A stretch of DNA of 64,000 bases from an uncultured Treponema sp. (GTDB taxonomy: Bacteria; Spirochaetota; Spirochaetia; Treponematales; Treponemataceae): contig CAMHMJ010000006.1 in NCBI GenBank assembly GCA_946186185.1, forward strand, positions 1 through 64,000, read 5' to 3'. The notes beneath the pieces were generated by a model that made no database searches, had not been told where the DNA came from, and saw nothing but the letters and a program-made list of their open reading frames with translations. Position 1 is the stretch's first letter. The number at the start of each line of letters is the position of its first letter. The position numbers and the translations under genes were made by a program. Positions 59,322-63,799 of this stretch are shown one piece after another.

Positions 59322-60050
59322 TTAAAATCCGCGGATTTCTACGGTTCCGTCTTCCTTTGCGATAAAGGCTTTCGGTGTGTTTTTTGTGAAGAAACCGGCT
59401 TCTACAACACCCGTGATGCTGTTAATAAAATCCTCGTATTCCTTTGGATTAACAGGTTTTTCCCACAGAAGGTCGATAATCTGGTTTCCGTTGTCGGTGA
59501 TTACAGGGCCGCATTTTCTGACACCCTCGCGGATTATAACCTTTGCGCCGGTTTTTTCAAGGGCTTTCTTAATCGGAACATAGGCTTCCGGAATGATTTC
59601 TACAGGGAGCGGGAACTTTGTGCCCAGGGTTTTTACGGCTTTTGAGCTGTCTGCAACGATTACAAAAATCTTAGAATTGTAGGCAACGATTTTTTCACGC
59701 AAAAGAGCAGCTCCGCCTCCCTTTATGAGGTTCGATTCTTCGTCGATTTCGTCTGCGCCGTCAATGGCAAGATCAAGGGTTCCGTCAATTACTCTGTCTC
59801 TGAAGGAGTAAACCGGAACTCCCCAGTCGATGCAGGCATTTTCAGTCTGGAAGCTGGTTGCAACCGCCTTAATGTCCTTAAGACGACCATCAGCGATGTA
59901 TTCGCTCAGGCGTTTTACGGCAGGAAGGGCTGTAGAGCCGGTTCCAAGTCCGATTTTCATTCCGCTGAAAATAAGACCTTTTTCAACAAGGGTATCGATT
60001 GCAGTGCAGGCTGCAAGCTCCTTCTGTTCTTTCTGTGATAACTGTGCCAT
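59322..60050 (-). CDS. rpiA: Ribose-5-phosphate isomerase A
   Basis: Interconverts ribose 5-phosphate and ribulose 5-phosphate in the pentose phosphate pathway. The 242 residues show the RpiA motifs: IGLGTGSTA, DGADEID, KGGGAALLREKIVA and a C-terminal EAGFF. It is about 10-20 residues longer than E. coli RpiA. AGAGGA precedes the ATG. It lies between aroDE and the long pseudouridine synthase gene, all on the minus strand. Confidence 0.96.
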   Translation of the reverse strand: MAQLSQKEQKELAACTAIDTLVEKGLIFSGMKIGLGTGSTALPAVKRLSEYIADGRLKDIKAVATSFQTENACIDWGVPVYSFRDRVIDGTLDLAIDGADEIDEESNLIKGGGAALLREKIVAYNSKIFVIVADSSKAVKTLGTKFPLPVEIIPEAYVPIKKALEKTGAKVIIREGVRKCGPVITDNGNQIIDLLWEKPVNPKEYEDFINSITGVVEAGFFTKNTPKAFIAKEDGTVEIRGF

Positions 60051-60123: not shown

Positions 60124-61650
60124 TTATCTGTATAATTTATTTGTCAGGTTGGAGCTTTCGTAGTCTTCTCCGGTAAAATGTTTGAACTGCCTGTAACTCT
60201 GATATTTAAGCATCTGAAGACCGTTTGAAACCTTGCAGCCCACGTTCAGCGCAACCTTCATGAGTGCAGTCTGTTCCGGGGAGTAGACGATGTCAAAAAC
60301 TGTTTCATGTCCCTTGAAGGTATAGAACCAGATGGGATTATTTTCCTTTGAAGGCTCGTCGTGGTTGTTCATTCCCACATTTGTTGTCTGAATAATGATG
60401 TCCGAATATTTTTCCAGTAAGGTTACGCTTTCGATTCCCAGAGGCGCGCAGGGAAAACCGAATCTGTCCCCAAGAAGCTTGGCGTTCACCTGATTGCGGT
60501 TAAAGATGCAGGCCTTTCCCCCCATCAGCTTTATTACATAGGCGATTGCGGCGGCGGCAGCACCGGCTCCAATTATTGCCACCTTTCGTTTGTGAAGCTT
60601 CTGGAATCCGATGAACTGGGTGAAGGCCTGATGGAAACCGTAAACCGCGGTCTGATAGCAGACCCAGCGGGTGTTTTTCCTGATAATTGTGTTGGCAGAA
60701 TTGATTTCTGCCGCTTCACTGTCCAGCTCCTCTATGTTGTACAGAATTTCTTTGTTAAACGGATAGGCGATGGAAAGTCCCTGAATCCCGACGTTCTCTG
60801 CAAACTGAAGGCTTTCTGCAATGGAAGTGGAGTGAAGGGGAATAAAGACCTTGTTCATTCCGTGGGAGCGGAAGCCTGCGTTCTGAAGAAGAATTGAATT
60901 TGAAGAGCGGAGGGGATTTCCAGTTATGGCAAAAATGTCCGTATCTTCATTTATTGCCCGGAAATTATAGATTTCATTCAGGGTAACCGGGTCTAATAGT
61001 CCGGAGCTGATAAGGTTTCCGGCAGTTTCCTTTGGAGAAGTGTAGGTGATGCAGGAGTTCAGCTTTGCGCTTAAAATTCTGGAAGGAATTCCCAGGGTTC
61101 CCGTTGCTGTAAGAATGTGTTCAAAATCGTTGAACCGTTCTCCTTCCTTAAAAAGGTTGGTTACATCGGAAAGAGTGTGTGGGGTCTGCACGATCTTTGG
61201 AATTTCGTAGCCGGTTTTCCGCATGGAATAACAGTGCTCACGAATATTTGTCAGCGGTCCTTCAAGATGATAGAGGCTTCTGATGATTTTTACGCCGAAG
61301 GCAAGGGCTGCGTCTTCAAGTCCCGGAATGTGAAAGTCGTCTTCAAAATCAACATAGGCAAAGTTCTTGGATGGATTTCTGTCTGCAAAAGCAAGAGCCC
61401 GGGCAAAAAGGGCAGTGCGGGAAAATTCACTTGAATTGAACTTTCCGCCGTCTGCAAGCCGCCGGATTGAAAGAATACATGGAATTCTTATCATGGACGG
61501 GAATTTTCTTACTTCAAGCTGCTCGTCTTCTGTAAGAAAATCTACCCTCAGCTCTGCAATGTCAACATATTTTGCGTACCGTTCGCAGAGCTCTGCATTT
61601 TCTTTGAGTGTCTGACAGGTGAGGGTAAGACAGATAAGGGATTTTACCAT
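60124..61650 (-). CDS. aroDE: Bifunctional AroDE-type protein; shikimate dehydrogenase half degenerate
   Basis: Residues 1-230 match type I 3-dehydroquinate dehydratase with Glu33/Arg35, Glu103, His128 and the Schiff-base Lys152 (PKIVQT). Residues 236-508 match shikimate dehydrogenase with an NAD(P) site (AIIGAGAAAAAIAY). In the second half the catalytic Lys and Asp are not conserved: NVTxPHK reads SIAYPFNK (Lys shifted one place, Asn299 in its position) and NTDxxGF reads QTAVYGF (Ala335). The substrate Ser motif is also altered. So the dehydratase is plausible, dehydrogenase activity doubtful. It follows the PASTA gene by 21 nt. Confidence 0.85.
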   Translation of the reverse strand: MVKSLICLTLTCQTLKENAELCERYAKYVDIAELRVDFLTEDEQLEVRKFPSMIRIPCILSIRRLADGGKFNSSEFSRTALFARALAFADRNPSKNFAYVDFEDDFHIPGLEDAALAFGVKIIRSLYHLEGPLTNIREHCYSMRKTGYEIPKIVQTPHTLSDVTNLFKEGERFNDFEHILTATGTLGIPSRILSAKLNSCITYTSPKETAGNLISSGLLDPVTLNEIYNFRAINEDTDIFAITGNPLRSSNSILLQNAGFRSHGMNKVFIPLHSTSIAESLQFAENVGIQGLSIAYPFNKEILYNIEELDSEAAEINSANTIIRKNTRWVCYQTAVYGFHQAFTQFIGFQKLHKRKVAIIGAGAAAAAIAYVIKLMGGKACIFNRNQVNAKLLGDRFGFPCAPLGIESVTLLEKYSDIIIQTTNVGMNNHDEPSKENNPIWFYTFKGHETVFDIVYSPEQTALMKVALNVGCKVSNGLQMLKYQSYRQFKHFTGEDYESSNLTNKLYR

Positions 61651-61671: not shown

Positions 61672-62700
61672 TCAGTGAACTGAAATTTTGTTTACTGCCT
61701 TGTCTACAACATAAAGTGTAAGTGTAGAATTCTTTGGAACCTTGTAAGGAATGCTTACGCTTCCACCTGTGTGGTTGAATGAGAGAAGTGTGTAGGTTCC
61801 TTCTTCTTCAGTTGTAACATCCACGCGCATTGGAACAGGATATGGATAATCTGTTACATCAGAGCGGAAGATGCCGTAAACGTCAGTTTCCTTTGGATCC
61901 TTTGCAGGGAAGGCGAATTCAACGCTCATTCGGGTGTAGTTCTTGATGAATTCTCCTTCGAATTCCTGCTGGCCTACAACAGTTCCTGCTTTTTCTGAAC
62001 CGGAAGCGGTGTGGCTTTCAAAATCAAAAATGATTCTGCTTCTTGAAATTGTCTGAAGCATATCGTTTACAGAAGCGCCCTTTAAGAAAGGTACTCTTGT
62101 GTTGTCAAAGTTAGGTCCGCGGCTTACTACAAGCTTTAATGTAATCGGCTCAGAAATCTCAGTTCCTTCTTCCGGATCCTGTTCAAGAATTGTTCCTGCA
62201 TCGCTTACATCGGCCTTGTATTCAGGGTTTGCAAGAACGATGAGAGGTTTTACAGAACCCGCAAAGAGTGTCTGCAGCTTGAGTTTAAGCTCGTCATAGT
62301 TCATTCCGATGTAATTTTCAACCTTGTCTACAATTACACCGCGGCTTACAACAAGGGAAACCCGGCTGTAACCTTTTACGATTGAACCGGCACCCGGTGT
62401 CTGGTCAAGAATTGTGCCTTCATCTCCCGGATTTTCTGAATATCGGAGGGTGATTTTAGGATAAAGTTCCTTGTTCTGCATTTCAATCAAAGCGTCAGTA
62501 AGTGCTTTTCCCTTTACATCCGGAACCATTACTTCTTCCGGGCCACGGACGTGAATAAAGAACACGGCGAGGCAGGCACATGTCATAAGGATAATTGCAG
62601 TTACGACTGTTAAAACCAGGGCAAGAGTGCTTGTCTGGAGTTTTTCTAAAATTTCATGAAAACTAATGCGGGAAGGCTTGAATTTATTCTTGATATCCAT
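61672..62700 (-). CDS. Membrane-anchored PASTA-repeat protein
   Basis: The 342 residues have a cytoplasmic N-terminus, one membrane span (about residues 27-50, LALVLTVVTAIILMTCACLAVFF) and three extracytoplasmic PASTA domains (VPDVKGKALTDALIEMQN; YIGMNYDELKLKLQT; VPFLKGASVNDMLQT). There is no kinase domain, unlike PknB-type PASTA kinases. PASTA domains bind peptidoglycan or muropeptides. It lies between fmt and aroDE. Its promoter abuts the ATG, so the transcript is probably leaderless. Confidence 0.9.
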   Translation of the reverse strand: MDIKNKFKPSRISFHEILEKLQTSTLALVLTVVTAIILMTCACLAVFFIHVRGPEEVMVPDVKGKALTDALIEMQNKELYPKITLRYSENPGDEGTILDQTPGAGSIVKGYSRVSLVVSRGVIVDKVENYIGMNYDELKLKLQTLFAGSVKPLIVLANPEYKADVSDAGTILEQDPEEGTEISEPITLKLVVSRGPNFDNTRVPFLKGASVNDMLQTISRSRIIFDFESHTASGSEKAGTVVGQQEFEGEFIKNYTRMSVEFAFPAKDPKETDVYGIFRSDVTDYPYPVPMRVDVTTEEEGTYTLLSFNHTGGSVSIPYKVPKNSTLTLYVVDKAVNKISVH

Positions 62701-62782: not shown

Positions 62783-63799
62783 TTAGTCTAAAACAGAGCC
62801 GATGAAGTTTCGGGAACCGTTCATGAAGGACTTGTAATCCATTTCATTTTTTCCCTGCTTCTGAAGGCGGGTTATGGCGTAAAAGCCTGTTCCGCACTCA
62901 ATAAGGATTCCTTTTCCCTTTACGAAGGCGCTTACTCTGCCAGGTGTTCTGGCGCTGCGTTTTTCTTCCTCAATTTTTTGTGCTGCAGGTGCGCCGTTTA
63001 TGAGGGAAAGTGCTTCTTCTTCAGTTACCGGAAGGCCTTCAAGAATTTTTAAGGTGCCTTCGCTGTTTTGCGTCCATGCGCAGGGATTTGAAAAATAGCC
63101 CCGAACCTTTGCATCGATTTCAAGGGCACTTTCCCTCCAGTTCAGGCGGGCGTCCTCTTTTTTTATCATTGAGGTGTAGCTGGCATTCCCTTCCTGAACT
63201 TTTCCTTCCGGCAGGTTCATGGTTTTTGAAAGGTCTGTAAGTATGCGGGTTAATTCTTCTCCGCCCCATGCTGCAGCGTCGTTCAATAGAGAGAAGGCTG
63301 TTTCTTTGCCGGAAAGCTTTACTTCTTCCTGACTCAAAAGGTTTCCTTCATCCATTTTTGGACTTACCTTCTGGATTGAAAAAGCCGTTGTTTCGTTTCT
63401 GTTTAGGATTGCGGCGTTTACCGGAGTGCAGCCCCTGTATTCTGGAAGACGGGAAGGGTGCAGGTTAATTCCGCCGAATTTAAATAGCGCCATGAATCTC
63501 GGTCCGAAAATGTGTCCGTAGGCAAAACAGACTAAGATATCTGGCTTTACGGCAGCAACGGCTTCCCGGGCTGGTGTATCAAGATGTTCCGGGTTAAAAA
63601 CCGGAATATTATAGCTTTGTGCAAGAGTTTCAACCGGGGTTGGTACCGGAGTTTTGTGGCGTCCCTGCACGGAAGGTGCATTTGTAAGAACACCGCAGAT
63701 TCTGAAAGCCGTGGAAGGCTCTGAATTAGAGTTTTTTATGAGAATTTCCAAGGTTTTTGCAGATGCCTCCGGGCTTCCTGCATAAAGAACATTAATCAT
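62783..63799 (-). CDS. fmt: Methionyl-tRNA formyltransferase
   Basis: Formylates initiator Met-tRNA using 10-formyl-THF. The 338 residues have the N-terminal formyltransferase fold with FAYGHIFGPRFM, the NLHPSRLPEYRGCTPV signature (catalytic Asn/His) and the KMDEGNLLSQEEV segment, then a C-terminal OB domain (PGRVSAFVKGKGILIECG). GGAGG lies 9 nt upstream of the ATG. A formyltransferase confirms bacterial-type initiation. It is preceded by foldback copy 3. Confidence 0.95.
   Translation of the reverse strand: MINVLYAGSPEASAKTLEILIKNSNSEPSTAFRICGVLTNAPSVQGRHKTPVPTPVETLAQSYNIPVFNPEHLDTPAREAVAAVKPDILVCFAYGHIFGPRFMALFKFGGINLHPSRLPEYRGCTPVNAAILNRNETTAFSIQKVSPKMDEGNLLSQEEVKLSGKETAFSLLNDAAAWGGEELTRILTDLSKTMNLPEGKVQEGNASYTSMIKKEDARLNWRESALEIDAKVRGYFSNPCAWTQNSEGTLKILEGLPVTEEEALSLINGAPAAQKIEEEKRSARTPGRVSAFVKGKGILIECGTGFYAITRLQKQGKNEMDYKSFMNGSRNFIGSVLD

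Follow-up and report, generated by a model that had tools for sequence, protein, structure and literature searches.

An AroDE protein, the fusion of 3-dehydroquinate dehydratase and shikimate dehydrogenase (SDH), in which catalytic residues of both halves are replaced is encoded in a 64,000-nucleotide stretch of DNA (below, the window) from the MAG of an uncultured Treponema sp. (3.04 Mb, 93% complete). By the best reading of its origin, it is the AroDE ancestral to the Treponema family and was inherited vertically. The same genome carries a second, complete set of shikimate pathway genes, and the whole altered protein has been under strong purifying selection since the lesions arose. We consider it probable that the ancestral enzyme has turned into a pseudoenzyme, retained for a non-catalytic role such as binding of a ligand or NADP, or scaffolding.

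Gene, Predicted Fold, and Genomic Context

The protein consists of a dehydratase domain followed by an SDH domain in a single chain, which is the order of the bifunctional AroDE enzymes (Pfam DHquinase_I, 1.3e-27; Shikimate_dh_N, 3.3e-12; Shikimate_DH slightly below the cut-off). Among solved structures, the Arabidopsis bifunctional enzyme is nearest in sequence (2gpt, residues 4–494; phmmer). The AlphaFold2 model (pLDDT 90.8, pTM 0.87) superposes on the Arabidopsis enzyme over approximately 477 residues (rmsd 2.4–2.5, Z 36.6–37.2), the top PDB match being 2o7s (Z 37.2), and the fold is thus predicted to be intact.

A preliminary description of this DNA had remarked that the gene lies beside a PASTA gene and apart from other aro genes (Table 1). 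This is true, but not unusual: the order fmt-PASTA-aroDE-rpiA-rlu is the usual arrangement in related loci, conserved with few exceptions in those examined wherever the contig reaches, and the window gene occupies the orthologous position.

Table 1. Features of the aroDE locus in the window.
Feature	Position	Strand	Basis or remark
fmt, methionyl-tRNA formyltransferase, conserved neighbor	62783..63799	−	above TIGR00460 cut-off; synteny
PASTA-repeat protein, no kinase domain, directly upstream of aroDE	61672..62700	−	similarity to PknB-type kinases confined to their PASTA part
aroDE, fused type I 3-dehydroquinate dehydratase and shikimate dehydrogenase, both active sites altered	60124..61650	−	508 aa, ATG start
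Dehydratase half, residues 1–225	60976..61650	−	alignment
Tyr127 codon, catalytic His column (His143 of E. coli/Salmonella AroD)	61270..61272	−	His in 136/140 genus AroDE
Dehydrogenase half, residues 226–508	60127..60975	−	alignment
Asn299, codon AAC, catalytic Lys column (Lys385 of the Arabidopsis enzyme)	60754..60756	−	Lys in 116/116 AroDE from genomes without AroE::AroK
Ala335, codon GCG, catalytic Asp column (Asp423 of the Arabidopsis enzyme)	60646..60648	−	Asp in 115/116 AroDE from genomes without AroE::AroK
rpiA, ribose-5-phosphate isomerase A, conserved neighbor	59322..60050	−	above TIGR00021 cut-off; synteny

Active-Site Substitutions in Both Halves

The catalytic dyad of the plant DQD/SDH enzymes is Lys385/Asp423 (PMC7752791). 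SDH residues were assigned by phmmer comparison with solved structures and by a MAFFT alignment with the Arabidopsis (2gpt), Aquifex (2hk9), and M. jannaschii (1nvt) proteins; the two alignments are concordant around the dyad and gap-free nearby. Both bear out the earlier proposal in that the motif Lys is replaced by Asn299 and the Asp of NTDxxGF by Ala335. Since alignment of the flanking motifs requires no gaps (SIAYPFNKE in the window vs. VTIPHKE in the reference; YQTAVYGF vs. YNTDxxGF), these are true substitutions and not a register shift. The protein hence lacks the Lys/Asp dyad that characterizes a catalytic shikimate dehydrogenase. In the M. tuberculosis SDH, the Lys69Ala replacement decreases kcat 68-fold and largely keeps DHS binding (PMC2789096). 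The lysine one residue further on, Lys300, had also been pointed out correctly. It is not a relocated catalytic Lys, because relatives whose dyad is intact have Glu in this column, as seen for the two references and 105 of the 116 AroDE proteins from genomes without AroE::AroK.

Further changes in the SDH pocket are Thr295Ala and Asn333Gln, while Ser250, Ser252, Asn320, Tyr456, Gln484, and the GxGxxA motif are retained. In the SxS region (RSSNSI), which the preliminary description had named beside the dyad changes, both serines, Ser250 and Ser252, are present; in the AroDE of the sister species described below, position 250 is Pro. As judged by its motifs, the NADP site appears to be mostly kept: GxGxxA and NR are in place, and the earlier statement that the nucleotide site remains should be qualified by two replacements, Gly364Ala (GAGAAA vs. 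GAGGAA) and Thr386Asn (NRN vs. NRT).

Type I dehydroquinases form a Schiff base with a lysine, and both its formation and its hydrolysis are described as depending on an essential histidine (PMC9902378). The dehydratase half, previously taken to be intact, does retain Glu33, Arg35, Arg63, Arg191, and the Schiff-base Lys152, which is kept in 140/140 proteins. However, His128, which had been counted among the kept catalytic residues, is off by one: no gap is required in the alignment, the catalytic His aligns with position 127, and this column is Tyr both in the window AroDE and in its sister. In most relatives, the column of His128 contains Asp, Asn, or Ser, and its assignment as the catalytic residue is unsupported. 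The other changes in this half are Ala154Val, Met183Thr, and His/Gln218Leu; three of the replacing residues (Tyr127, Val154, and Thr183) are fixed across the two sister species. The Ala154 position (codon 61191–61189), situated beside the Schiff-base Lys152, is Val in four of the five AroDE proteins from AroQ-containing genomes (the window genome, G092, G057, and G129) and in 0/135 others.

A second, independent MAG, G092 (= RUI196), represents a sister species and encodes an AroDE 89% identical to the window protein and with the same lesions, which rules out a sequencing or assembly error.

A Second Shikimate Pathway Gene Set

The preliminary description had suggested that a second AroE might exist, and a genome search found one together with the rest of the pathway. 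Contig C21 of the same genome contains the complete operon pheA-aroB-aroC-aroE::aroK-aroQ-aroA-aroF. The products AroB, AroC, AroQ (a type II dehydroquinase; TIGR01088), and DAHP synthase score above the NCBIfam equivalog cut-offs, and clear matches below these cut-offs were obtained for AroA, for both parts of the AroE::AroK fusion, and for the prephenate dehydratase part. The AroE part of the AroE::AroK fusion is intact, with both Lys and Asp present (NVTIPYK and NTD). As the operon thus encodes an intact AroE and AroQ, both reactions of AroDE are covered elsewhere in the genome. No second type I dehydroquinase above the cut-off was found in this genome. Contamination of the bin by C21 is unlikely, given a base composition in agreement with that of the window (GC 43.2 vs. 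43.1), the tetranucleotide correlation (r 0.92), and the presence of AroQ and AroE::AroK in the sister MAG (AroE part 80% identical).

The AroC encoded in this operon is 73–79% identical to the AroC proteins of the AroE::AroK-containing genomes G057, G129, and G025, and 43–47% identical to those of ordinary Treponema. The identity is 39% to the AroC of G074, a genome whose AroDE falls in a clade with an Asp-to-Asn replacement. These identities within the genus suggest that an aro operon of the AroE::AroK type may have been gained at least twice separately.

Distribution of Altered AroDE Proteins in the Genus

In a survey of 146 genomes of the genus, AroDE proved to be near-universal (139/146, one of these, G043, being matched only by its AroE::AroK), and it is present in all 20 genera of the family; 140 AroDE sequences were aligned. 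AroE::AroK was found in 25 genomes, and AroQ in six, all of which also contain AroE::AroK.

The Lys and/or the Asp of the SDH dyad is lost in 14 of the 24 AroDE proteins from AroE::AroK-containing genomes vs. 1 of 116 others (Fisher test, 4e-12, kinship ignored). The lone exception, in G010, occurs in a genome that holds a second, intact AroDE. Loss of the dyad is hence not a genus-wide trait, since both residues are retained in relatives without AroE::AroK. The substitutions vary by lineage: Lys is replaced by Asn, Thr, Gln, or Arg, and Asp by Asn, Glu, Ala, or Thr; Asp to Glu and Lys to Arg, as conservative replacements, may preserve activity. By parsimony, nine changes of the dyad state and eight changes of AroE::AroK presence are placed on the tree. 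A kinship-corrected test comprised four pairs on well-supported branches, too few for significance (median p 0.25).

The mean number of deviations at near-invariant sites in genomes without AroE::AroK is 0.14 for the dehydratase half and 0.21 for the SDH half, low values that partly arise by construction, as the columns were defined on these genomes. The respective numbers are 0.53 and 7.7 in genomes with AroE::AroK only, and 3.2 and 7.0 in genomes with both AroE::AroK and AroQ. The difference in the dehydratase half between the latter two groups (p 0.010, kinship ignored) is unaffected by the choice of columns. The catalytic His is replaced in three of the five AroDE proteins of AroQ-containing genomes vs. 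1/135 others, that one being a spare copy in G002. Across the genus, conserved sites of a given AroDE half are altered in the presence of a gene that covers its reaction. Against this pattern stands G138, a genome with both AroE::AroK and AroQ, whose AroDE is unaltered at every near-invariant site; decay is thus not inevitable. In G043, which also has both, AroDE was not found, the genome being 72% complete. In all 24 AroE::AroK genomes with AroDE, the open reading frame is full-length.

Several additional observations were made in the survey. Two genomes contain two AroDE copies, one intact and one altered (G002, L205 and L219; G010, L155 and L218), which constitutes a second route to the same decay. 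In G006_L209 and G130_L202, the Rossmann glycines are lost (GAGGAAK to GDTANAN) and NADP binding is probably gone, and dN/dS of the SDH half is still 0.03. Eight AroE::AroK loci (L068, L071, L074, L076, L078, L079, L080, L083) lie within longer open frames of 831–883 aa; the two that were read fully run into AroA-like sequence, suggesting a triple fusion. Finally, in G090 (97% complete), as well as in G052 and G058, no type I or type II dehydroquinase or shikimate dehydrogenase domain was found, but G090 encodes chorismate synthase; the missing enzymes of G090 may reflect either an unknown replacement or an assembly gap.

Selection on the Retained Gene

The double lesion is known in two species only, and the estimate of selection accordingly comes from one pair of proteins, 89.4% identical, at a high dS (about 1.5). 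For this pair, dN/dS of aroDE is 0.043 both by the Nei–Gojobori method and by pairwise codon maximum likelihood (95% interval 0.029–0.064), and dN/dS = 1 is rejected (likelihood ratio 449), which rules out a neutrally evolving pseudogene. The two halves have dN/dS of 0.034 (dehydratase) and 0.056 (SDH), and the gene as a whole falls within the range of its neighbors in the same pair (rpiA 0.027, PASTA 0.034, fmt 0.122). In other lineages with AroE::AroK, dN/dS of the SDH half is 0.03–0.09 vs. 0.03–0.12 in controls without it.

In the tree, the stem branch of the pair is long (0.51) and its tips are short (0.06 and 0.08), which points to a burst of change on the stem followed by constraint. Among near-invariant SDH sites, 11 are changed in either sister, and 4 of these 11 differ between the sisters; all 49 kept sites are identical (49/49). 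The differences in the pocket are Ala/Glu295, Ala/Thr335, and Ser/Pro250 (window/sister). This pattern is indicative of a pocket that has been freed within a scaffold that is held.

Possible Roles of the Retained Protein

We propose that a separate aro operon encoding AroE::AroK and AroQ took over both AroDE reactions, and that the freed AroDE would then have lost the SDH Lys, Asp, and pocket Thr, as well as the catalytic His of the dehydratase. Such a protein would no longer make shikimate at a useful rate and would be retained for something that its fold does without turnover. Binding seems the most likely form of this role, because the barrel keeps Lys152 and the arginines, and the Rossmann half keeps GxGxxA and NR; the protein could bind dehydroquinate, dehydroshikimate, or NADP(H), either as a sensor or to hold it, and act via a partner, in a manner resembling that supposed for the fungal QutR repressor. 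A purely structural or partner-binding role is a close alternative within the same pseudoenzyme reading. The preliminary description had offered a regulatory role, another substrate, or a second AroE as explanations. The last was found and accounts for the tolerance of the lesions; it does not explain the ongoing purifying selection, which leaves room for a regulatory or other role. A more specific and tentative version is that AroDE, once an aro operon had made it redundant, became a bacterial counterpart of the QutR family, which would sense dehydroquinate or dehydroshikimate and NADP(H) without catalysis; in broader terms, the SDH half may have turned into a constrained pseudo-domain several times independently within the genus. 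We regard this version as possible, if rather doubtful.

The main rival of the pseudoenzyme reading is residual dehydratase activity, with the SDH half dead and serving as a structural partner, and the barrel active beside AroQ, Tyr127 or His128 acting in place of His143. Residual or altered chemistry of this kind is possible as Glu33, Arg35, Arg63, Lys152, and Arg191 are all kept, and the dehydratase half is the most strongly conserved (dN/dS 0.034). Moreover, in AroE::AroK genomes without AroQ, this half is near-untouched, and the SDH half is altered yet constrained (0.03–0.09), as would fit a scaffold for the barrel. Still, we find a working dehydroquinase unlikely, as the column replaced by Tyr127 is occupied by His in nearly all proteins of the genus and its loss coincides with AroQ, which the complete operon already contains; the histidine is described as essential for both forming and hydrolyzing the Schiff base (PMC9902378), and Ala154Val, Met183Thr, and His/Gln218Leu accompany its replacement.

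It is less probable again that the protein has become a new enzyme, acting on a changed substrate and catalyzing another reaction by means of its old cofactor or its Schiff-base lysine. The plant quinate dehydrogenases, which arose from DQD/SDH with loss of the dehydratase activity (PMC7752791), provide a precedent, and the rapid change along the stem (0.51) with strong constraint thereafter, the mostly kept NADP motif, and the fixation of Tyr127, Val154, and Thr183 in both sisters would all be in line with it. On the other hand, the SDH pocket has diverged further from one sister to the other at positions 295, 335, and 250, unlike a pocket selected for new catalysis, and no candidate for a new acid-base pair is apparent. 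As for a pseudogene in the making, decaying without selection, the redundancy of both functions is real, the active-site lesions follow it, and no AroDE was found in the 72% complete G043, which has AroE::AroK and AroQ. This explanation is nevertheless highly improbable in view of the low dN/dS (0.043; likelihood ratio against 1, 449), the full-length frames of the two sisters and of all 24 AroE::AroK genomes with AroDE, and the constraint on the altered half in sister pairs, which is the same as in controls.

Comparison with Known Systems

The Treponema AroDE proteins constitute a replicated natural experiment on a bifunctional enzyme whose job, or both jobs, are taken over by others. In several lineages and by differing substitutions, each half loses active-site residues when a stand-in is present, and selection is as strong as in active relatives. 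This makes it testable why redundant enzyme domains persist as pseudoenzymes. It also means that automatic annotation as AroDE in these Treponema is no proof of both activities. Among the open-access papers searched, nothing on point was found on Treponema AroDE or a pseudo-SDH.

The window protein shares its two domains, their order, and the fold with the Arabidopsis DQD/SDH (2gpt, 2o7s; Z 36.6–37.2), and its locus and neighbors with other Treponema AroDE. It differs from both in the replacement of Lys/Asp by Asn/Ala, His by Tyr, and the pocket Thr by Ala. AroE and the AroE-like proteins YdiB, HI0607, and Ael1 have the same Rossmann and substrate-domain fold (Z about 28–32); the AroE references 2hk9 and 1nvt keep Lys and Asp, unlike the window AroDE, and YdiB, HI0607, and Ael1 were compared by fold alone. 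The plant quinate dehydrogenases derive from an AroDE paralogue that lost the dehydratase activity and changed its role (PMC7752791), but they are still dehydrogenases, whereas the window protein is devoid of the dyad.

The fungal repressors QutR/QA-1S, GaaX, and TanX are relatives of the last three AROM domains and are thought to lack catalytic activity (PMC10512348; PMC12610400) but to bind ligands (PMC10512348). Like the window AroDE, repressors of the QutR type retain the dehydratase and shikimate dehydrogenase domains, and they provide a precedent for the use of these two domains by a supposedly inactive protein. In contrast to them, the window protein is bacterial, has no shikimate-kinase-like domain in front of the dehydratase domain, which begins at residue 7, and has no known linked Zn(II)2Cys6 activator. 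It lies outside the QutR family, having presumably originated independently from a bacterial AroDE.
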